From Metabacillus sediminilitoris (GTDB taxonomy: Bacteria; Bacillota; Bacilli; Bacillales; Bacillaceae), in NCBI RefSeq assembly GCF_009720625.1, contig NZ_CP046266.1, forward strand, positions 1,807,501-1,871,500: 64,000 nucleotides of DNA, given 5' to 3'. The position numbers and the translations under genes were made by a program. Of the stretch, positions 37,414 through 56,150 are shown piece by piece; position 1 is the first letter of the stretch, and every line of letters starts with the position of its first letter. A model generated the notes under the pieces. The model was not told where the DNA came from, did not search any database, and saw only the letters and a list, made by a program, of their open reading frames with translations.

Positions 37414-38538
37414 ATGAATGTATGGCAGCCGAATAGTCCATTAGGAGGACTGCCATTTATTAAGAATGCAAGCTCAAAGTGAGAATCTAGTTATGACCGT
37501 ACAGGTGGTAATAGAGATTTTAAAGAAGTAGAACCAGGTGAAACAGCAGTCATGGCTGATATTAAGGGTGCTGGTTGTATTAAACATATTTGGATGACGA
37601 CAAGATGCTATGCCGAACAATACTTACGTAAGTTAGTTTTAGAAATGTATTGGGACGGTGAAGAAAATCCTAGTGTGAGAGTACCTTTAGGTGATTTCTT
37701 TGGAATTGGGCACGCAACATGCAAGCATTATGTATCATTACCATTGAGCATGGTGATGGGGGAAAGAAGAGGACCAAAGGGACCTTTTGCAGCTTCGATG
37801 AACAGTTATTTCTCGATGCCATTTGGAGATGGTGCAAGAATTCAATTAATAAATGAAAGTGAAAGCAGAATTGAAAACTTATTTTATTACGTAGATTACG
37901 AGAGTTATGATAGTAGTGACCAAATTCCTGATGATGTTGGAAGGTACCATGCAACATGGAATCGGGAAAATCCTTGTCAAAAAGTCGTTCATCCAAAAGA
38001 AATGGATAAACCCGCACCATGGGAGCTGCCAGGTAAAAATACAACCGGAGATGACAATTATGTCATATTGGATACAGAAGGAAAAGGTCATTAAGGTTGT
38101 GTATTAAATATCGATAATTTTGATGCATCAAATCAGGAATTCACTTGGCCGGGTGAGGGTGATGATATGTTTTTCATTGATGGAGAAGAATGGCCGCCAT
38201 CACTGCATGGAACAGGCACAGAAGATTACTTTAATGCAGCATGGGGTTTTCCAAGTGGAGAATATGCTGGTCCATATCATGGTATTTCTTTAGGAAGTGA
38301 TGTTCAGGAGCATTTTGGCTTATGGAGTTTATATCGATTTCATATAGAGGATCCGATTCGTTTTTCAACATCCATTCGTGCAACAATTGAACATGGTCAT
38401 GCCAATGATCAAGGAAATGATTATTCGAGTGTTGCCTATTGGTATCAGCTTGAACCACATAAGCCATTACCAAAGCTTCCAAACGTAAAAGATCGACTTC
38501 CAAGAAGATGGCCTGAACATGGGCTGTGGGATAAGTAA
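37414..38538 (+). pseudogene. GH172 / DUF2961 glycoside hydrolase with two in-frame stops
   Basis: One reading frame of 374 codons runs from ATG 37414. It is interrupted by TGA at 37480 (within a conserved SSYDRTGGNRDF context) and TAA at 38092 (GKGH, stop, GCVLNIDN). Conserved DUF2961 blocks remain: IKGAGCIKHIWMTTR, VPLGDFFGIGHA and GTGTEDYFNAAWGFPSGEYA. GH172 enzymes act on fructofuranosides or arabinofuranosides. The rest is free of frameshifts, so inactivation looks recent. It heads the ABC importer cluster, whose substrate is probably its former product or substrate. Confidence 0.85.
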
Positions 38539-49060: not shown

Positions 49061-49123
49061 TTGACAAATAGTAGATTGAGGGTATACTAAAATCATAAGG
49101 TAACTTAGTAGACAAGTGAACAA
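49061..49123 (+). promoter_or_regulatory. Promoter and GntR-type operator of the transketolase operon
   Basis: TTGACA (49061-49066) and TATACT (49083-49088) are 16 bp apart. The 23-bp site at 49101-49123 (TAACTTAGTAGACAAG then TGAACAA) overlaps the expected transcription start. The identical 23 bp occur at 52997-53019. The core ACTT-N7-AAGT is a dyad. Confidence 0.8.
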
Positions 49124-49192
49124 CTCGGAATAATGTAAGCCCTTTAGTTAAGGTCTATACACAATAAGTCATAATTTAATGAGGTGGCGAAG

Positions 49193-50026
49193 ATGAAAAA
49201 TATAAGTATTGAAGAATTAAAAGAAAGAGCTGTTGAAATGAGGAAAACAGCTATAACTATGATTCACAAAGCACAATCAGGTCATCCTGGAGGTTCACTT
49301 TCTGCAGCTGATCTCATGACAGCTTTATATTTTAAGGAAATGAACATTGATCCAAGCAATCCTACTTGGGAAGATCGTGATCGATTTGTTCTATCGAAAG
49401 GTCATGTTTGCCCAATCCAATATTCAGCATTAGCTCTACTTGGATATGTCCCATATGAAACGATCTACACATTAAGAGAGTACGGTTCTCCTTTCCAAGG
49501 ACATCCAGATATGAAAAAGTGTCCGGGAATTGATATTTCAACAGGTTCACTTGGTCAAGGACTTTCTTGTGGAGTAGGGATGGCAATCGCAGGTAAAAGA
49601 GATAAAAAAGATTATCGAGTGTTCTCTTTAGTTGGAGATGGTGAGTGTCAGGAAGGTCAAATTTGGGAAGCTGCTCAAACTGCAGTGAAGTACCAACTCG
49701 ATAATTTAGTTGTCTTTGTAGATAATAACAGACTTCAAATAGATGGTTTCTGTGATGAGATTATGCCAGTTTTAGATCTTGAGAAGAAATTTGAAGCTTT
49801 TGGCTTTGAAACAAAACGAATTGATGGACATTCGATGGAAGCAATTGTTGAAACATTAGATGAAATTAGAGAATTGAAAAATGGAAAACCAAAATGTATC
49901 GTACTTGATACCGTAAAAGGGAAAGGCGTTTCTTACATGGAAGATATCGCCGAATGGCACGGGATTGCTCCAAATGACGAAGAATTTAATCAGGCAATGG
50001 AAGAAATCGCAGGAGGTTTAAAATAA
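49193..50026 (+). CDS. Transketolase, N-terminal (thiamine pyrophosphate) subunit
   Basis: A 277-residue half-transketolase carrying the TPP pyrophosphate-binding domain. Conserved features are SGHPGGSLSAADLMTALYF, SKGHVCPIQYSALA, and the metal-binding motif GDGECQEGQIWEAAQTAVKY ending in NNR. It works with the next gene product as a split enzyme moving two-carbon units between ketose and aldose phosphates or analogues. ATG 49193 has GAGGTGG upstream; an in-frame GTG at 49184 sits inside that site. First gene of the GntR-controlled operon. Confidence 0.92.
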   Translation: MKNISIEELKERAVEMRKTAITMIHKAQSGHPGGSLSAADLMTALYFKEMNIDPSNPTWEDRDRFVLSKGHVCPIQYSALALLGYVPYETIYTLREYGSPFQGHPDMKKCPGIDISTGSLGQGLSCGVGMAIAGKRDKKDYRVFSLVGDGECQEGQIWEAAQTAVKYQLDNLVVFVDNNRLQIDGFCDEIMPVLDLEKKFEAFGFETKRIDGHSMEAIVETLDEIRELKNGKPKCIVLDTVKGKGVSYMEDIAEWHGIAPNDEEFNQAMEEIAGGLK

Positions 50027-50973
50027 TGAGTATCATGGAAAAAACGCTCACAACAAAAAAAGCGACAAGAGAAGCCTTTGGTGATGAAATCGTAAAACTA
50101 GGAAAAGAAAATAAAGATATTTATGTTATTGATGTAGATATTGCAAAATCATGTAAAACAAGCAATTTTATCAAGCAATTACCTGAACAGCATATTAATG
50201 TAGGAATTGCTGAGCAAAATGCTGCCGGTCTCGCTGCTGGACTTGCTACAACTGGTAAGATCCCTTTTGTAAGCACTTACGCTGTGTTTGGCTCATTAAG
50301 AATGGCTGAGCAAATTAGACAAGAAGTGTGTTATCCCAACTTAAATGTAAAAATTGCATGTTCTCATGGCGGGTTAACTCCTGCAAATGATGGAGGAAGT
50401 CACCAAGCGATCGAAGATATGGGTGTGTTAAGAAGTTTTCCTAATATGACGGTTATTATGGGAGCTGACTATTACTCTACTAGAAAACTTGTCGAGCAGG
50501 CAGCAAAGACCTATGGACCTGTTTATCTACGTTTTACTAGAGATACGATTCCAATCATTTACGATGAAAATGAAGAATTCACAATTGGTAAAGCAAAACA
50601 ATTAAAAGATGGTAATGATATAGCAATTATCGCGAATGGTGATACTGTTCATCTTGCATTACAAGCTGCGAAGCAATTAGAAAATGAAGGTATTTCTGTA
50701 AAGCTATTAGACATGCACACAATTAAACCTCTAGATCGAGATGCAGTTGTGGAATGTATAAATATTGGAAAGATAATTACAGTGGAAGATCATACGATTT
50801 TAAATGGTCTAGGGAGTGCAGTTTGCGAAGTTGTTGCAGAAGAAGGTAAGGGCATCGTAAGAAGAATAGGTGTGCAAGATCAGTTCGGACAATCTGCACC
50901 ATATGAAAAACTGTTAGAACTTAATGGTATTACCGTTGAAAATATTATTGCTACTGCAAAAGAAATACTTTAA
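50026..50973 (+). CDS. Transketolase, C-terminal subunit
   Basis: A 315-residue partner with the pyrimidine-binding domain. The conserved Glu is in INVGIAEQNAAGLAAGLA, followed by HGGLTPANDGGSHQAIEDMG and the C-terminal transketolase domain (KLLDMHTIKPLDRDAVVECI). The ATG overlaps the previous stop (TAATG), so the two halves are translationally coupled. Split transketolases like this serve both standard pentose phosphate flux and dedicated pathways such as apulose-phosphate or sulfosugar cleavage. Confidence 0.92.
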   Translation: MSIMEKTLTTKKATREAFGDEIVKLGKENKDIYVIDVDIAKSCKTSNFIKQLPEQHINVGIAEQNAAGLAAGLATTGKIPFVSTYAVFGSLRMAEQIRQEVCYPNLNVKIACSHGGLTPANDGGSHQAIEDMGVLRSFPNMTVIMGADYYSTRKLVEQAAKTYGPVYLRFTRDTIPIIYDENEEFTIGKAKQLKDGNDIAIIANGDTVHLALQAAKQLENEGISVKLLDMHTIKPLDRDAVVECINIGKIITVEDHTILNGLGSAVCEVVAEEGKGIVRRIGVQDQFGQSAPYEKLLELNGITVENIIATAKEIL

Positions 50974-50983
50974 GTAAAAGCTA

Positions 50984-51065
50984 TGTTAAAGCTTAATGTT
51001 GATTTTCGATCACTTTGTTGATTGGAGCGAACACCTGTAGCGAAAATCAACAACCATGTTTAACA
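50984..51065 (+). repeat. Nested inverted repeat inside the transketolase-SDR operon
   Basis: Outer arms TGTTAAA (50984-50990) and TTTAACA (51059-51065) enclose GTTGATTTTCG (50998-51008) and its complement at 51041-51051. The inner part TTGATTGGAGCGAACACCTG resembles a dispersed intergenic element often seen in Bacillus genomes. It may stabilise or partially terminate the operon mRNA. Confidence 0.6.
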
Positions 51066-51126
51066 GAGCCTAAGTAAAAAAGAAATAGTTTAAAAAATCA
51101 TCTTATTTTGAGGAGAGACTAAAAAC

Positions 51127-51885
51127 ATGTTTGAATTAACTAATAGAGTTGCTATCGTTACAGGAAGCGGATCAAAAAAAGGGATTGGCCGTACAATTGC
51201 CCTAACACTTGCAAAGCAAGGAGCAGCCGTTGTAATCGCTGATTTAAATGCAGATGGGATTCAAGATACAGTTCAAGCGATTCAAGAAGCTGGTGGAAAA
51301 GCATTAGGTGTAGAACTAAATGTAACGAACAAAGAATCAGTTGATGCTATGGTTGAAAAAGTTCTAGCAGAATATGGACGGATTGACATTCTTGTCAATA
51401 ATGCAGGAATTTCACAAAAAGTGACAGTTGAAGATATGACAATTGAAGATATCACAAAAGTCTTTAATGTCAATATGTTTGGATTATTCCTATGCTCTCA
51501 AGCGGTATTAGAACAAATGAAAAAACAAAAGTTTGGTAGAATTATAAGCCTTTCCTCTGTATCTGCTAAAAGAGGAGGAGGGGTATTCGGGGGAGCACAT
51601 TATTCAGCATCCAAAGCTGCTGTCCTAGGATTCTCTAAGAATTTGGCACGTGAAGTTGCAGTAGACGGAATTACAGTAAACTGTGTTGCACCAGGCCTTG
51701 TTAATACTGAAATATGGAAATCATTGCCTAAAGAAGATGCTGAACAAGTGATTGCTGGAATACCAATGGGCAGACCAGGTGAAACAGAAGAAATAGCAAC
51801 AACAATTGCTTTCTTAGCTTCTGAAGAAGCATCTTATATTACTGGTGAAGAAATCGATATTAACGGCGGATCACATATGGATTAA
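51127..51885 (+). CDS. Short-chain dehydrogenase/reductase
   Basis: A 252-residue classical SDR. The cofactor motif is GSGSKKGIGRTIA, then NNAG, active-site Ser in ISLSSVSAK, and the YSASK Tyr-Lys pair, ending in GEEIDINGGSHMD. An acidic residue after beta-2 (VIADLNADG) favours NAD. It resembles polyol and sugar-acid dehydrogenases as well as FabG, so the substrate is not fixed by sequence. It is the last gene of the transketolase operon, where it probably makes or removes a keto sugar. Confidence 0.88.
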   Translation: MFELTNRVAIVTGSGSKKGIGRTIALTLAKQGAAVVIADLNADGIQDTVQAIQEAGGKALGVELNVTNKESVDAMVEKVLAEYGRIDILVNNAGISQKVTVEDMTIEDITKVFNVNMFGLFLCSQAVLEQMKKQKFGRIISLSSVSAKRGGGVFGGAHYSASKAAVLGFSKNLAREVAVDGITVNCVAPGLVNTEIWKSLPKEDAEQVIAGIPMGRPGETEEIATTIAFLASEEASYITGEEIDINGGSHMD

Positions 51886-51904
51886 TGATATAGTCCCTTA
51901 CTTT

Positions 51905-51935
51905 ACAGGCATTCCAACAGGAATGCCTGTCTATT
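51905..51935 (+). terminator. Terminator of the transketolase-SDR operon
   Basis: ACAGGCATTCC/GGAATGCCTGT (51905-51915 and 51920-51930) with a 4-nt loop; the T-run is weak. Confidence 0.75.
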
Positions 51936-52100
51936 AGTTTGATGAAAAAAAGAAGATCAAATCAAGGAACAGAATCCAAATAGAGATTTTATTAAAAATC
52001 CCTAGATTCATTCGAAATTTAAGTTTATTGCCCTTTTAAATAAATTTCTATATAATTATTCTTAATTAAAAATGTTAATTTGAACACAATATGGAGAGAA

Positions 52101-52811
52101 GTGGTTATTATTAGTTTTAATCCGGTATCCAGCAAGAAATTATATATGCAAATTTATAGCCAAATCCTTTCAGAAATCCAATCGGGTTCTTTTAAAATAG
52201 GTGATAAACTTCCAGCTGAAAGAGAATTATGTGAACAGTTTGGTGTAAGCCGTGCCCCAATTCGTCAGGCACTTAGTGCGTTGGAACTAAATGGAATTAT
52301 CTATTCCCGTCAAGGCGAAGGTGTTTATGTGAAAAATACTCAGGTTACACCTGATAGGTCTCAATCAGCCATATTTTTCAATTCTATTTCCCCTGAGGAT
52401 ATCGTTGAGGTAAGGATGAATATTGAGCCTCTTATCGTAAAATTTGCTGCGCAAAGAGCCACGAATGAAGACATAGAGGAACTTCGTAGGACAATCGAAG
52501 AGATGGAGAAAGAAACTAAAGCTGGTGTATATGTACCAGAAACAGATGAAAAATTACATTATGGCATTGCAAAGGCTTCTCATAATGATTTGTTTATCAA
52601 CATGATGGCCGCTATTAATAATGCAATGAAACAACAAGAAATGTGGAAATTTATTCGCGACCGTACCGTCACACGTCCAGACTATAGAGATGTTAATTTT
52701 AAAGAGCATCAATTAATTATTAAAGCGATTGAGGATCATAACGAAAAAGAAGCAGTCGAAATTATGACGAATCATATGCAAAACTTATATGACCGGTATT
52801 GGAAAGATTAA
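52101..52811 (+). CDS. FadR-subfamily GntR regulator
   Basis: A 236-residue repressor. The winged HTH is KLPAERELCEQFGVSRAPIR with GEGVYV at the wing. The C-terminal all-helical FCD domain (VEVRMNIEPLIVKFAAQRAT; LHYGIAKASHNDLF; HQLIIKAIEDHNEKEAVEIM) has the metal-binding His and Asp pattern typical of organic acid-sensing members. GTG 52101 is preferred for its GGAGAG site. It sits between two promoters that share an identical 23-bp site and is the likely regulator of both. Confidence 0.87.
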   Translation: MVIISFNPVSSKKLYMQIYSQILSEIQSGSFKIGDKLPAERELCEQFGVSRAPIRQALSALELNGIIYSRQGEGVYVKNTQVTPDRSQSAIFFNSISPEDIVEVRMNIEPLIVKFAAQRATNEDIEELRRTIEEMEKETKAGVYVPETDEKLHYGIAKASHNDLFINMMAAINNAMKQQEMWKFIRDRTVTRPDYRDVNFKEHQLIIKAIEDHNEKEAVEIMTNHMQNLYDRYWKD

Positions 52812-52848
52812 TAAATGAAATTTCTGCAGTTGAAAATTATACAATACT

Positions 52849-52881
52849 AAAAACCCCCTTTTAAATATTAAGGGGGTTTTT
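52849..52881 (+). terminator. Terminator of the GntR gene
   Basis: A perfect 12-bp stem AAAAACCCCCTT (52849-52860) with 52870-52881. Confidence 0.95.
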
Positions 52882-52956
52882 AGTATTTCAAGGTTTAAAG
52901 TGTCCTACATAAGAATGATGAGTTTTATAAAATGTTTAGACTATTTCATCAATATA

Positions 52957-53019
52957 TTGACAAATAAAACTGGCAAACGTATAATGAACATATAAGTAAC
53001 TTAGTAGACAAGTGAACAA
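52957..53019 (+). promoter_or_regulatory. Promoter and GntR-type operator of the ACS transporter transcript
   Basis: TTGACA (52957-52962) and TATAAT (52980-52985) are exactly 17 bp apart, a consensus promoter. The 23-bp site at 52997-53019 is identical to that at 49101-49123 and placed at the same distance (11-12 bp) after the -10 box. Confidence 0.88.
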
Positions 53020-53146
53020 GAATACAAAAATAGAAAGGATGGAAGGGATAAATGTAATCGTTCACAATAGCAATAAACGGTTCCATATAGAGAAGTTATT
53101 GAGGAATTATTTGACATAACATCATTTAGATTTTGCTGTGAAAAAA

Positions 53147-53161
53147 ATGTAAGCGTTTGAA
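53147..53161 (+). promoter_or_regulatory. cre-like box in the transporter leader
   Basis: ATGTAAGCGTTTGAA matches the CcpA consensus with one mismatch. It lies downstream of the promoter, where CcpA would act as a roadblock. Confidence 0.5.
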
Positions 53162-53289
53162 GAGGGGAGACATCACTTGTCATTTTAGTAGTTTCATTGG
53201 CAATGAGAAAAAGATACTACTATTCTCTCTAAACTCAGGTGATATGAAATCATGAAATGAATAAACAGGCAACTAAAGGAGGAATTGTA

Positions 53290-54621
53290 TTGGATCAACA
53301 CACATTAGAGCGTACAACGACTAAAAAAGTTACATTAAGATTAATTCCATTTCTATTTCTATGTTTTATTATTGCCATACTAGATAGGGTGAATATTGGA
53401 TTTGCAGCTTTGCAAATGAACAAAGATTTAGGTTTCTCAAATGCAGTCTTTGGATTAGGAGCAGGAATCTTTTTCATTGGTTATTTCCTTTTAGAAGTAC
53501 CAGGAAGTGCGATGATGACAAAAGTTGGAGCAAGAAAATGGATTAGCAGAATTATGGTTACTTGGGCTATTGTTGCAGTTTTAATGGCTTTTGTACAAAC
53601 TCCATTGCAGTTTTATGTGGCACGATTTGTATTGGGGATTGCCGAGGCTAGTTTTTATCCATGTATGGTCTATTACTTAAGTGGTTTTTATCAAACGAAA
53701 CATCATGCGAAAGCGATTGCAGGATTTATGTTGGCGATCCCGGGAGCAAATGCATTAGGTGCGCCACTTTCAACTTTTTTATTAGGTATTGACTGGTTAG
53801 GAATGGCTGGATGGCAATGGCTGTTTATTTTGGAAGCGATACCAGCCTTTATCTTAGGTGTGATAAGTTATTTTTATCTCGATGACAAAATTGAAGATGT
53901 AAAATGGTTAAACAAAGATGAGAAAAAATGGCTGATTGACATTACGACAAAAGAAAATCTTGAAAAACAGCAAGTAAAACATTATACATTTGCACAGGCA
54001 TTGAAGGATCGTGACGTATTAATCTTATCTGTAGGATATTTTTGTTGGATGGTTGGCTATTACGGAATAAATATGTTTTTACCAACGATTTCACAAGGCT
54101 TGTCTGAGACAACATCACTCAGTATGCAAAATATGGGATGGATTTTAGGACTTATGTATGTTTGTGCCATGGTGGTGATGATTCTAGTTGGAAACCATTC
54201 TGATAAAAAGAATGAGAGACGTTGGCATGTAGCCTTTTGTTTAACAATAAGTGCTATTGCAATGATGATTAGCAGCTATGTTGCTGATACAAGTATCATC
54301 TTATCATTTGTATTTCTAACCATCGCACTGTGCGGCGCATTTGGTGCATATTCTCCATTTTGGGCGATTCCACCTTCTTTCTTAACTGGAGCTGCTGCTG
54401 GAGGTGCGATTGCCCTTATTAACAGTATAGGTAATTTAGGAGGATTCTTTGGACCATACATTGTGGGATATATTAAGGATACAACAGGATCCTTTAATAT
54501 AAGTATGATTTTCTTAGGAATCAGTATGATCTTAAGTTCTTGTATTATAGTCTTCTTGGTAAAACAGTCAGGAAAGGCTTTAAGCAAGGAAGTTGAAAAG
54601 AAACTAGAAAAAACAAGTTAA
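53290..54621 (+). CDS. ACS-family (anion:cation symporter) MFS transporter
   Basis: A 443-residue, 12-segment MFS protein. LDRVNIGFAALQMNKDLGFS in TM1, GARKWISRIMVTW and the LSGFYQTKHHAKAIAGFM loop are typical of the ACS family, which imports hexuronates, galactonate, tartrate and other organic anions. TTG 53290 follows AAAGGAGG at 7 bp; ATG 53257 has no ribosome site. It is expressed from the GntR-site promoter with a long leader of about 290 nt. The substrate likely feeds the transketolase operon. Confidence 0.87.
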   Translation: MDQHTLERTTTKKVTLRLIPFLFLCFIIAILDRVNIGFAALQMNKDLGFSNAVFGLGAGIFFIGYFLLEVPGSAMMTKVGARKWISRIMVTWAIVAVLMAFVQTPLQFYVARFVLGIAEASFYPCMVYYLSGFYQTKHHAKAIAGFMLAIPGANALGAPLSTFLLGIDWLGMAGWQWLFILEAIPAFILGVISYFYLDDKIEDVKWLNKDEKKWLIDITTKENLEKQQVKHYTFAQALKDRDVLILSVGYFCWMVGYYGINMFLPTISQGLSETTSLSMQNMGWILGLMYVCAMVVMILVGNHSDKKNERRWHVAFCLTISAIAMMISSYVADTSIILSFVFLTIALCGAFGAYSPFWAIPPSFLTGAAAGGAIALINSIGNLGGFFGPYIVGYIKDTTGSFNISMIFLGISMILSSCIIVFLVKQSGKALSKEVEKKLEKTS

Positions 54622-54728
54622 AATGTCCATCTATATATGTTTGTAAAATGATCAGAGGGATGACGCGCTTATTCCGTTGTGTGTTTATGAAAGGGTTTTA
54701 ATAAAACAAAAACTATGGGGGAAAAGGT

Positions 54729-54881
54729 ATGTCTGTGGAATTAAATGTAAAACAAAATACAATTTTATGTCAAGAATGCGGAGAAGTGATTGACACAATT
54801 GATAGCTCGGAAGGAGTTAAAACGTGGTTCGGAATCTGTACGAATTGTGCTATAGAAAAGCAAGCAAGTGTCATTGACTAA
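54729..54881 (+). CDS. 50-residue CxxC/CxxC zinc-ribbon protein
   Basis: The product is MSVELNVKQNTILCQECGEV...VKTWFGICTNCAIEKQASVID. Two Cys pairs (CQEC, CTNC) 20 or so residues apart suggest one bound zinc. The layout recalls SR1P-like GapA-binding peptides, but the sequence is not close. A GGGGG site precedes ATG 54729. It lies 107 bp after the ACS transporter and may share its transcript. Function unknown. Confidence 0.6.
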   Translation: MSVELNVKQNTILCQECGEVIDTIDSSEGVKTWFGICTNCAIEKQASVID

Positions 54882-55040
54882 ATCTGTAATAAACGTCTGC
54901 AAAAAACTCTGGTCCCTAGAATCAAATTCAAATAGACAAAATAAATCCAAGTGAAAATTTTATGATCATTCTATAAATGTTGGATTGCTAGATTATAGAA
55001 TTAATTAACATTGTATTTCATTTAATAGGAGGAATATGGT

Positions 55041-55538
55041 ATGGCGATTACATTTAAAAATAAACCTGTTTCATTACAAGGAAATGAAGTGAAAGTTGGA
55101 GACATAGCACCTAATTTTACAGTGCTTGCAAATGATTTATCTTCTATAACACTTGCAGATTCAAAAGGAAAGGTTCGTTTAATTTCGGTAGTGCCTTCTC
55201 TAGACACAGAGGTTTGTGATACTCAAACACGACGATTTAATGAAGATGCAGCTAATATAAGTCAAGTAGAAGTGTTAACCATTAGCGTTGATTTACCGTT
55301 TGCCCAAAATAGATGGTGCGGGTCAAATGGACTTGAAAACGTAAAAACACTTTCCGACCACCGTGATCTTTCATTTGGTGAAGCTTATGGGGTTCATATA
55401 AAAGAATTACGCTTATTAGCACGTGCCGTATTTGTCATTGATTCAAGTGACAGGGTGACATATGTAGAGTATGTAAATGAAGTAACCAATCATCCTGACT
55501 ATCATGCAGCAATAGAAGCTGCTAAAGCTGCAAAATAA
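55041..55538 (+). CDS. tpx: Thiol peroxidase Tpx
   Basis: A 165-residue atypical 2-Cys peroxiredoxin. The peroxidatic Cys is in [17 protein letters not shown] and the resolving Cys in [12 protein letters not shown], with [11 protein letters not shown] at the C terminus. It reduces alkyl and hydrogen peroxides using thioredoxin in the cytoplasm. AGGAGG precedes the ATG. It is preceded by about 160 bp without a gene, so it may have its own promoter; a role in the surrounding sugar cluster is not implied. Confidence 0.95.
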
Positions 55539-55588
55539 CATAAATACTAAATAAAAAATAGGATATAAAATGACCGTGATATATTCAT

Positions 55589-55620
55589 GCTGCCCGGGAA
55601 ATCTTGGCAGCCTTTTATTT
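55589..55620 (+). terminator. Terminator of tpx
   Basis: GCTGCC/GGCAGC (55589-55594 and 55606-55611) with an 11-nt loop, followed by CTTTTATTT. Confidence 0.8.
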
Positions 55621-55703
55621 CGTCATGTAACTGATTAGTTGATATCCAGAGTGAAAAATGTAGAATTTAAAAAAATCATGAAAAGAGAATAGGAGGAAGT
55701 TGA

Positions 55704-56150
55704 GTGAAAGTAGCAATTGCTTCTGATCATGGCGGTATATCCATTCGTAAGGAAATGATCTCCTTGATGAAGGAGATGAAGATAGATTTTATAGATTTGG
55801 GATGTGAATGTGAAACATCTGTTGACTATCCAGATTATGCGCTAACAGTAGCTGAGAAAGTAGCAAAAGGTGAAGTAGACCGCGGGATTTTAATCTGTGG
55901 TACAGGTATTGGAATGAGCATAGCAGCAAATAAGGTAAAGGGAGTACGCTGTGCACTTGTACATGATACGTTTAGCGCTAAGGCTACAAGAGAGCATAAC
56001 GATTCCAATATATTGGCTATGGGTGAGCGTGTGATTGGTTCAGGATTAGCTCGTGAAATTGCGAAAATTTGGCTAACAACCTCTTTTGAAGGAGGGAGAC
56101 ATGCTAATCGTGTAAAAAAAGTGACGGATTATGAGGAAGCATACATTTAA
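55704..56150 (+). CDS. rpiB: Ribose-5-phosphate isomerase B
   Basis: A 148-residue aldose-ketose isomerase of the RpiB/LacAB family. ASDHGG binds the phosphate. The catalytic Cys is in LICGTGIGMSIAANKVKG, and HDTFSAKATREHNDSNILAM supplies the ring-opening His. Similarity to B. subtilis YwlF is very high by eye, so ribose-5-phosphate is the simplest substrate. The GTG start follows AGGAGG. Its location beside a split transketolase suggests use in the same pathway, but a terminator separates it from tpx. Confidence 0.9.
   Translation: MKVAIASDHGGISIRKEMISLMKEMKIDFIDLGCECETSVDYPDYALTVAEKVAKGEVDRGILICGTGIGMSIAANKVKGVRCALVHDTFSAKATREHNDSNILAMGERVIGSGLAREIAKIWLTTSFEGGRHANRVKKVTDYEEAYI

Follow-up and report, generated by a model that had tools for sequence, protein, structure and literature searches.

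In the genome of Metabacillus sediminilitoris, a single contig of 5.6 Mb, we analyzed a stretch of 64,000 nucleotides (genome positions 1,807,501-1,871,500; hereafter the window) that harbors a gene cluster built around a split transketolase (TK). A sequence-only reading of this DNA had proposed an undescribed, transketolase-based catabolic system under a GntR regulator. The six features on which it relied, namely the N- and C-terminal subunits of the transketolase (TK-N and TK-C), a short-chain dehydrogenase/reductase (SDR), the GntR regulator, a carrier and a ribose-5-phosphate isomerase of the RpiB family, are all present where it had placed them, as judged from open reading frames (ORFs) together with domain and NCBIfam matches (Table 1). 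By eye, TK-N probably starts at the ATG at 49193, which is preceded by GAGGTGG, and for the regulator the GTG at 52101 is probably to be favored over 52080. The closest named relatives of the gene under study are, among the matches listed, mostly from Metabacillus.

Table 1. Features of the transketolase cluster, with positions counted from the first nucleotide of the window
Feature	Positions	Strand	Remarks
Promoter P1 (TTGACA, 16-bp spacer, TATACT)	49061..49088	+	
Operator O1, GntR-type, 24 bp, GTAACTTAGTAGACAAGTGAACAA	49100..49123	+	23-mer from TAACTT begins 12 bp past the -10 box
TK-N, split transketolase N-terminal (thiamine diphosphate-binding) subunit	49184..50026	+	Transketolase_N 201.7 bits; best PDB match 6yak
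TK-C, split transketolase C-terminal subunit	50026..50973	+	clade signature SHGGLTPANDGGSH and STYAVFGSLRM
SDR, putative sugar-acid (omega-1) dehydrogenase	51127..51885	+	S144, K148-R149-GGG, Y159, K163
GntR regulator with FCD domain	52080..52811	+	GntR helix-turn-helix and FCD matches
Promoter P2 (TTGACA, 17-bp spacer, TATAAT)	52957..52985	+	
Operator O2, 24-bp string identical to O1	52996..53019	+	23-mer begins 11 bp past the -10 box
cre-like site ATGTAATCGTTCACA	53052..53066	+	perfect match to WTGNAANCGNWNNCW; between O2 and the carrier gene
Major facilitator superfamily (MFS) carrier, anion:cation symporter (ACS)-like	53257..54621	+	D-galactonate and HpaX carrier families match best, each under its cut-off
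SR1P-like ORF of 50 amino acids	54729-54881		between carrier and tpx; Pfam 23.7 bits, cut-off 26
Thiol peroxidase Tpx	55041..55538	+	
RpiB, ribose-5-phosphate isomerase B	55704..56150	+	TIGR01120; second copy in genome

To establish how far this arrangement is conserved, we scanned contigs from one genome per species and obtained at least 593 matching stretches, at least 573 of which encode TK-N relatives; the best 80 loci and the window together formed a set of 81, in which neighborhoods of up to 9 kb on either side were compared. TK-C proteins bearing the signature SHGG-TP-(N/T/S/D)DG-SH were found as predicted ORFs in 54 of the 81 loci, six-frame reading adding two more (L056 and L058); 19 loci have a TK-C that lacks the signature, and in 6 no TK-C was found. 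Some rows are near-copies of one another (e.g. L038 and L039), and the locus counts are hence not independent. The co-occurrence of SDR and carrier with the split transketolase, set beforehand as a test of the proposal, was borne out: an SDR occurs in 51 of the 54 signature loci and an organic-anion carrier in 49, in support of a transketolase-based catabolic unit equipped with an anion carrier and placed under GntR control (GntR/FCD regulators in 40). Less regular companions are RpiB (20), PfkA (16), tpx (14), a Zn-dependent medium-chain dehydrogenase/reductase (MDR; 12), FBA (4), RpiA (3), Rpe (2) and a tartronate semialdehyde reductase-like protein (2). These identities were taken from NCBIfam for the genes of the window and for one or two representatives each of MDR, DctP, GntP, FBA and the reductase; those of PfkA, RpiA, Rpe, TctA and others were read by eye. 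TK-N, TK-C and SDR occur together in 50 of the 54 loci, the SDR gene overlapping TK-C or following it within 400 bp in 48 of these, with other genes intervening in the remaining two. The loci with an SDR span several families and two phyla, and the genes of the cluster stay linked in many bacteria of Bacillus-like or clostridial type. The unit is uncommon but scattered, as two further comparisons show: a close TK-N copy (at least 88% identity) is present in 8 of 21 genomes of the genus, M. sediminilitoris included, and among 398 genomes of the phylum a TK-C of at least 77% identity was seen only in M. sediminilitoris, G391 and G306, the next best match being at 56%.

The Transketolase_N, Transket_pyr and Transketolase_C domains all score above their cut-offs in the two subunits. 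Both also match, nearly at full length, the likewise two-subunit split-chain transketolase of Carboxydothermus hydrogenoformans (6yaj/6yak), but that enzyme has GEDGASHQ and STFAVFAAGRA where the window has ANDGGSHQ and STYAVFGSLRM, the latter type being common to the signature loci. In a midpoint-rooted tree of 102 TK-C rows, the 56 signature rows (the 54 loci and two further ones, with L056 and L058 left out) make up one side of a branch with a support of 100/100 and a stem of 0.61, and their neighbor is a small group with TPGNDG. We compared the residues expected to hold the phosphate head-group, matching positions by spacing and by alignment with 6yaj and leaving out the F of the motif. 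R, S, H and R (R15, S42, H114 and R172 in the window) are kept in 54 of 54 signature loci; in the 19 other loci the second residue is A in 11 and S in 8, with R, H and R at the remaining positions. The signature proteins differ elsewhere, with Y for the F of STF in all 54 as against F in the 19 others, and with GS (53) or GT (1) where the latter have AA, AT or AS. This pattern of residues suggests that a phosphorylated acceptor has been retained and that the donor site has changed.

In each of 26 aligned SDRs selected from the family, a K-R pair lies four and five residues past the S at position 144 (K148-R149 in the window), and this pair is predicted to be one that may bind a carboxylate. 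The SDR scores above the cut-off of NF005559 (PRK07231, glucose 1-dehydrogenase; 237.4 bits, cut-off 215), a broad subfamily that does not prove the substrate, and below that of gluconate 5-dehydrogenase NF006070 (197.3 bits, cut-off 279), an activity that it may nevertheless have; among the best 120 of its 1403 matches, the homologues bear generic names only. The MDR of L038 likewise falls below L-idonate 5-dehydrogenase NF007375 (197.2 bits, cut-off 469). Several loci contain both an SDR and an MDR, each with its own carrier, plus two GntR genes, for which the simplest reading is that the two dehydrogenases feed one keto-acid from two epimers. The route for L-idonate and D-gluconate offers a parallel, as there an MDR (IdnD) and an SDR (IdnO) act on epimers to give one keto-acid; here, in contrast, the SDR and MDR lie below the gluconate and idonate 5-dehydrogenase cut-offs, and no gluconate kinase was recognized by eye in the 28 loci read. 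The SDR-less loci L082, L083 and L085 have carriers that by eye are of the tripartite tricarboxylate transporter (TTT) type together with another dehydrogenase, the complement of L083 being TK-N, TK-C, MDR and a TTT-type carrier. The sister-group locus L212, read by eye, contains PfkA, TK-N, TK-C, MDR, DctP, DctQ and DctM, with no SDR seen.

The carriers are of four organic-anion types that replace one another among loci. With representatives identified by NCBIfam, the 54 loci comprise 25 with ACS-like carriers, 16 with tripartite ATP-independent periplasmic (TRAP) carriers, 9 with GntP and 2 with TctA, and 5 have none by the clusters used. The MFS carrier of the window reaches 299.1 bits against its best family, TIGR00893 (cut-off 395), and is thus ACS-like rather than an established member of the ACS family (2.A.1.14). 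A ligand could not be assigned from structural matches to the TRAP binding protein model, itself modest (mean pLDDT, the predicted local distance difference test score, 72.8), the best matches being TRAP binding proteins of many kinds. We take 4pdd, 4pdh and 4p9k to be structures with erythronate as ligand. All 16 TRAP binding proteins have R156, R176 and N216, which align with Arg152, Arg173 and Asn213 of 4P47, given in one structural study as contacts to the carboxylate (PMC11668362). That study ascribes these contact residues also to a TRAP protein that binds isethionate, a sulfonate, and lists ten TRAP homologues, of which two are open, three hold sugar acids, one holds orotate and the rest hold pantoate or erythronate (PMC11668362). 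As an observation apart, an IS110-type transposase gene lies between the TRAP carrier genes and TK-N in one locus (L148:14423-15703).

The genes are further linked by a shared operator. The two promoters of the window do share an identical 23-mer, within the 24-bp identical string, and its distance from the -10 box, given as the same in both by the sequence-only reading, is only nearly equal (Table 1). Across the 5.6-Mb genome this 23-mer has two matches at up to three mismatches, both at these promoters, as against one for the reversed control. For the comparison among loci we used a 15-bp core, ACTTAGTA(G/T)ACAAGT, allowing up to two mismatches within 350 bp upstream and scoring a site between divergent genes for both. 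Of the 54 TK-N genes examined, from 56 loci, 34 have it upstream, as do 8 of 12 MDR, 14 of 32 MFS carrier, 5 of 9 GntP and 4 of 18 DctP genes, and also 9 of 50 GntR, 4 of 20 RpiB, 4 of 14 tpx, 1 of 16 PfkA and 1 of 2 reductase-like genes; TK-C and SDR, both operon-internal, have none (0 of 54 each). Controls with the reversed motif and 19 shuffles matched at 0-1.7%. In the window itself, tpx and RpiB have no operator at up to three mismatches; some of their relatives have one. The regulator, with its helix-turn-helix and FCD domains, belongs to the FadR/FCD subfamily, the ligands of which are usually organic acids. The expectation of a single GntR regulator holds insofar as the transketolase unit comes with a GntR/FCD protein, and fails in that several relatives carry two GntR genes. 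Control by a cre-like element is likewise supported by the perfect match upstream of the carrier gene, a pattern that with one mismatch allowed occurs 51 times in the 64 kb on both strands.

A genome-wide search for the operator in eight genomes of the genus, which the sequence-only reading had recommended for finding missing steps, brought no convincing extra step. Of 22 matches with zero mismatches 19 lie in the region of the transketolase cluster; of the other three, one precedes a carrier gene adjoining a GntR gene (G011, L146) and the rest lie around a second SDR, a GntP-type permease and a GntR gene (G016, L147). Several one-mismatch matches are at unrelated places (L150-L154, L159). In four of the eight genomes, including M. 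sediminilitoris (2 real, 10 control), control counts for the core equal or exceed the real ones, and single sites outside the cluster therefore mean little. The row at L147:5256-9006 comprises the second SDR just mentioned, for which the closest ORF of the loci has 92% identity, the GntP-family permease, the GntR gene and two perfect operator cores; no transketolase was seen there.

Rpi, Rpe, PfkA and FBA, with ordinary transketolase and transaldolase, lead from xylulose-5-phosphate to glyceraldehyde-3-phosphate, and at least one gene of this return set (RpiB, RpiA, Rpe, PfkA or FBA) is present in 30 of the 54 loci. The RpiB of the window, one of two RpiB-family genes in the genome, had been described as close to canonical; indeed it exceeds the cut-off of the TIGR01120 equivalog (176.6 bits, cut-off 138.65) and falls short of D-erythrulose-4-phosphate isomerase NF051858 (122.7 bits, cut-off 240). 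It is best read as a return enzyme because in relatives it adjoins, or is replaced by, RpiA, Rpe, PfkA or FBA. A kinase or isomerase in the regulon pointing to a standard phosphorylated pathway had been named as an outcome contrary to the proposal, and the operators before some RpiB genes and one PfkA gene touch on it; we read them as serving the handling of xylulose-5-phosphate, but they fit ordinary pentose-phosphate chemistry too. Separately, a PfkA gene at L148:8139-9152, with a perfect operator core ahead of it, is divided into two ORFs of 99 and 210 amino acids (PFK positions 1-77 and 110-277) and is apparently broken.

Taking these lines together, we interpret the cluster, with a probability of roughly 0.6, as a kinase-free catabolic unit for a sugar acid, comprised of carrier, dehydrogenase, split transketolase and return enzymes. 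Gene content, conservation, the operator, the active-site residues and the clade are observed; from them we infer each of its reactions, as well as the sign and the ligand of the regulator, as follows. A sugar acid (aldonate) would enter via the anion carrier, and the SDR would oxidize the secondary alcohol beside its CH2OH end, so that the resulting keto-acid ends in HOCH2-CO-; the MDR of relatives would start from the epimeric acid and arrive at presumably the same keto-acid. The dedicated split transketolase would then transfer the ketol from the keto-acid to glyceraldehyde-3-phosphate, yielding xylulose-5-phosphate and an aldehydo-acid two carbons shorter, and RpiB, Rpe, PfkA and FBA would convert xylulose-5-phosphate to triose phosphates, thereby regenerating the acceptor. 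As the carboxylate would stand in for phosphate, no substrate kinase would be needed. Both promoters are probably under repression by the GntR/FCD protein as long as neither the acid nor its keto form is available, and CcpA would act on the carrier gene.

The nearest described system is the sulfo-transketolase pathway for sulfoquinovose (SqvD, SqwGH, SqwI), which follows the same logic. There, a split transketolase moves a ketol from an anionic ketose that is not phosphorylated onto glyceraldehyde-3-phosphate, and delivers xylulose-5-phosphate into the pentose-phosphate pathway without any substrate kinase (PMC9594981, PMC11659671). The system described here differs in its entry through a dehydrogenase instead of an isomerase, its organic-anion carriers, its R-S-H-R set in place of RAFDR and its nearly canonical RpiB.

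Given the established mechanism of transketolase, what is left behind is glyoxylate from a C4 keto-acid, tartronate semialdehyde from a C5 one and a C4 semialdehyde from a C6 one. Within the model, our tentative first choice is a C4 substrate, L-threonate or D-erythronate being oxidized to 3-oxo-tetronate and cleaved to leave glyoxylate; it stands slightly ahead because it needs the fewest extra genes and because L074 has DtnK-like and PdxA genes near the transketolase. In the known tetronate pathways (LtnD/OtnI/OtnK or DtnK/PdxA, by their NCBIfam names) 3-oxo-tetronate or the acid itself is phosphorylated; with a C4 substrate the two types of pathway would share 3-oxo-tetronate as intermediate, but here the transketolase would cleave it unphosphorylated. 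Slightly less probable, to our minds, is a C6 substrate (D-gluconate or L-idonate giving 5-keto-D-gluconate and leaving tartrate semialdehyde), which has tartrate dehydratase near L055 and L148 and an in vitro precedent in its favor: an engineered transketolase variant of Escherichia coli cleaves 5-keto-gluconate to tartrate semialdehyde, which makes acidic ketoses possible transketolase donors (PMC12016104). A C5 substrate, leaving tartronate semialdehyde, seems to us somewhat less likely still, and any other substrate the least likely. Several marker genes were looked for in the 21 genus genomes. Tartronate semialdehyde reductase, tried as proof of C5, is over the cut-off in four of the eight genomes that bear the transketolase and in one of the 13 others, and is not specific, since in all five it adjoins a DUF1537-type kinase near a GntP-like permease (by eye). 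Tartrate dehydratase, tried as proof of C6, is found in two of the eight and none of the 13, here at a separate locus beside another GntR gene (by eye), and neither malate synthase (17 of 21) nor glycerate kinase (21 of 21) distinguishes the groups. In M. sediminilitoris a tartronate semialdehyde reductase (over cut-off), a DUF1537-type kinase-like protein, a class II aldolase and a GntP-like carrier make up a separate row of acid-sugar genes near flagellar genes (L172:4787-9758).

Several observations weigh against the sugar-acid model. Fourteen of the 54 TK-N genes have no operator even at three mismatches (L045, L046, L054, L060, L061, L073-L077, L081, L082, L085 and L086), and 24 of the 54 loci are without a return gene from the clusters used. 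Among its 25 best NCBIfam families, the SDR is over the cut-off only for the broad PRK07231 and the FabG subfamily PRK12826, and for no sugar-acid enzyme. The absence of a sugar kinase holds in the sense that no substrate kinase regularly accompanies the transketolase; single cases are, in L065, a PfkB gene close to the distal end of the locus and, in L074, a DUF1537/D-threonate-kinase-like gene (234.5 bits, cut-off 450) on the opposite strand about 0.9 kb after the SDR, which our kinase motif scan missed and which marks that scan as not sensitive. Genes for the fate of the aldehydo-acid vary among loci: L043 (435.6 bits, cut-off 397; two-mismatch operator) and L086 (393.7 bits, just below; between DctM and TK-N) each have one resembling tartronate semialdehyde reductase; others are a D-2-hydroxyacid dehydrogenase in L082 and L085, that of L082 being below all cut-offs shown; a glyoxylate-reductase-like protein in the sister-group locus L213 (419.5 bits, cut-off 455); and tartrate dehydratase noticed only in the two loci named above, its alpha subunit tested in L148. 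In M. sediminilitoris, tartrate dehydratase and tartronate semialdehyde reductase are encoded at separate places in the genome. The substitutions R358I, H461S and R520Q in the E. coli enzyme are, we presume, changes at the phosphate site of transketolase. They belong to the variant that is better on 5-keto-gluconate (PMC12016104); the phosphate-site residues are all kept here, which speaks against C6, or else these residues serve the acceptor.

The retention of this phosphate-binding set in all 54 loci is also what would be expected if the chemistry were ordinary and phosphorylated, with the split transketolase merely adding pentose-phosphate capacity and the SDR and carrier handling an acid that enters metabolism elsewhere. 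The near-canonical RpiB and the association with pentose-phosphate and glycolytic genes (RpiB, RpiA, Rpe, PfkA and FBA), some with the operator, fit this explanation, but the genome already has, among ten Transket_pyr matches, two whose frames are as long as a transketolase (688 and 680 amino acids) besides the split enzyme. Moreover, the clade is distinct and has a long stem, a dehydrogenase and an anion carrier accompany it, and a kinase able to make a phosphorylated entry compound was seen nearby only in L065 and L074; we consider this explanation unlikely. We judge slightly less likely still that the substrate is a short neutral sugar, the SDR making erythrulose, a known transketolase donor, from a polyol (a tetritol, for instance), with glycolaldehyde left over once the transketolase has used it. 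SDRs often act on polyols and sugars, that of the window passes the broad glucose 1-dehydrogenase model, and a kinase would be unnecessary there too; against this stand the organic-anion carriers, the carboxylate contacts retained by the TRAP binding proteins and the general preference of FCD regulators for organic acids.

A sulfosugar route of the SqwGHI type resembles the cluster in outline, combining a split transketolase with an RpiB-family protein, and the contact residues shared with the isethionate-binding protein would be compatible with a sulfonate. Among the head-group residues, the 6-deoxy-6-sulfofructose (SF) transketolases have RAFDR in place of RSFHR (PMC11659671). R, S, H and R in 54 of 54 loci, the window included, speak against SqwGH, the H being the telling residue as A also replaces S in 11 of the 19 other loci. 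The RpiB passes the canonical model, and in the 28 of 54 loci read by eye near the core, no SqvD-type sulfoquinovose isomerase, sulfoquinovosidase, or sulfoacetaldehyde reductase or dehydrogenase was recognized, no family search having been made for them. We regard the sulfosugar route as very improbable. Thus, of the two substrate types that had been suggested to enter by an ACS carrier, the sugar acid with an anion carrier is favored, its identity unproven, and the sulfosugar is disfavored. That the acid-sugar genes form only a loose island, with transketolase, SDR and carrier as mere neighbors, is the least credible reading to us; tetronate and tartrate genes do occur nearby in single loci, but the presence of the SDR in nearly every signature locus, across several families and two phyla, and the shared operator argue against it.

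Returning to the sugar-acid model, its extension to the whole clade appears to us to have slightly better than even odds: a carboxylate-ketose transketolase subfamily would define a kinase-free sugar-acid pathway in Bacillaceae, Paenibacillaceae, Staphylococcaceae, Clostridiaceae and Spirochaetota, with dehydrogenase and carrier exchanged around a constant transketolase, as a carboxylate counterpart of the sulfo-transketolase pathway and possibly with direct release of glyoxylate from C4 acids. Among the titles listed by our searches of open-licence literature, none described this transketolase with a sugar-acid dehydrogenase, subscription journals being outside the scope of the search. If the model is correct, the carboxylate of a sugar acid would do the work of phosphate and spare the ATP of a kinase, a function would be provided for a transketolase clade that the family models used name only transketolase, and the pathway annotation of many Bacillota genomes would be corrected.

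Some additional features of these neighborhoods deserve mention. The description of the window had passed over tpx and the SR1P-like ORF, which sit between the carrier gene and RpiB; the latter ORF drew no NCBIfam match. The gene tpx recurs beside the transketolase cluster (e.g. L037, L041 and L149). Among sister-group transketolases, that of L215:1282-11727 stands in a row with an aldehyde ferredoxin oxidoreductase-like protein, two MDR-like proteins and a glycyl radical enzyme of unassigned subtype, a set that may represent another, anaerobic route for acids. That of L213:7582-18309 is accompanied by ABC sugar-carrier-like genes, the glyoxylate-reductase-like protein and a TIM-barrel isomerase similar to the one in the Spirochaeta loci. 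On the strand opposite the transketolase cluster, L110:11653-15135 has KDPG-aldolase-like, DapA-like and SIS-domain-like genes (by eye). Elsewhere in the window, at 37552-38535, a DUF2961 gene that adjoins ABC sugar-carrier-like genes is split into two ORFs (profile positions 1-122 and 144-235) and looks broken.

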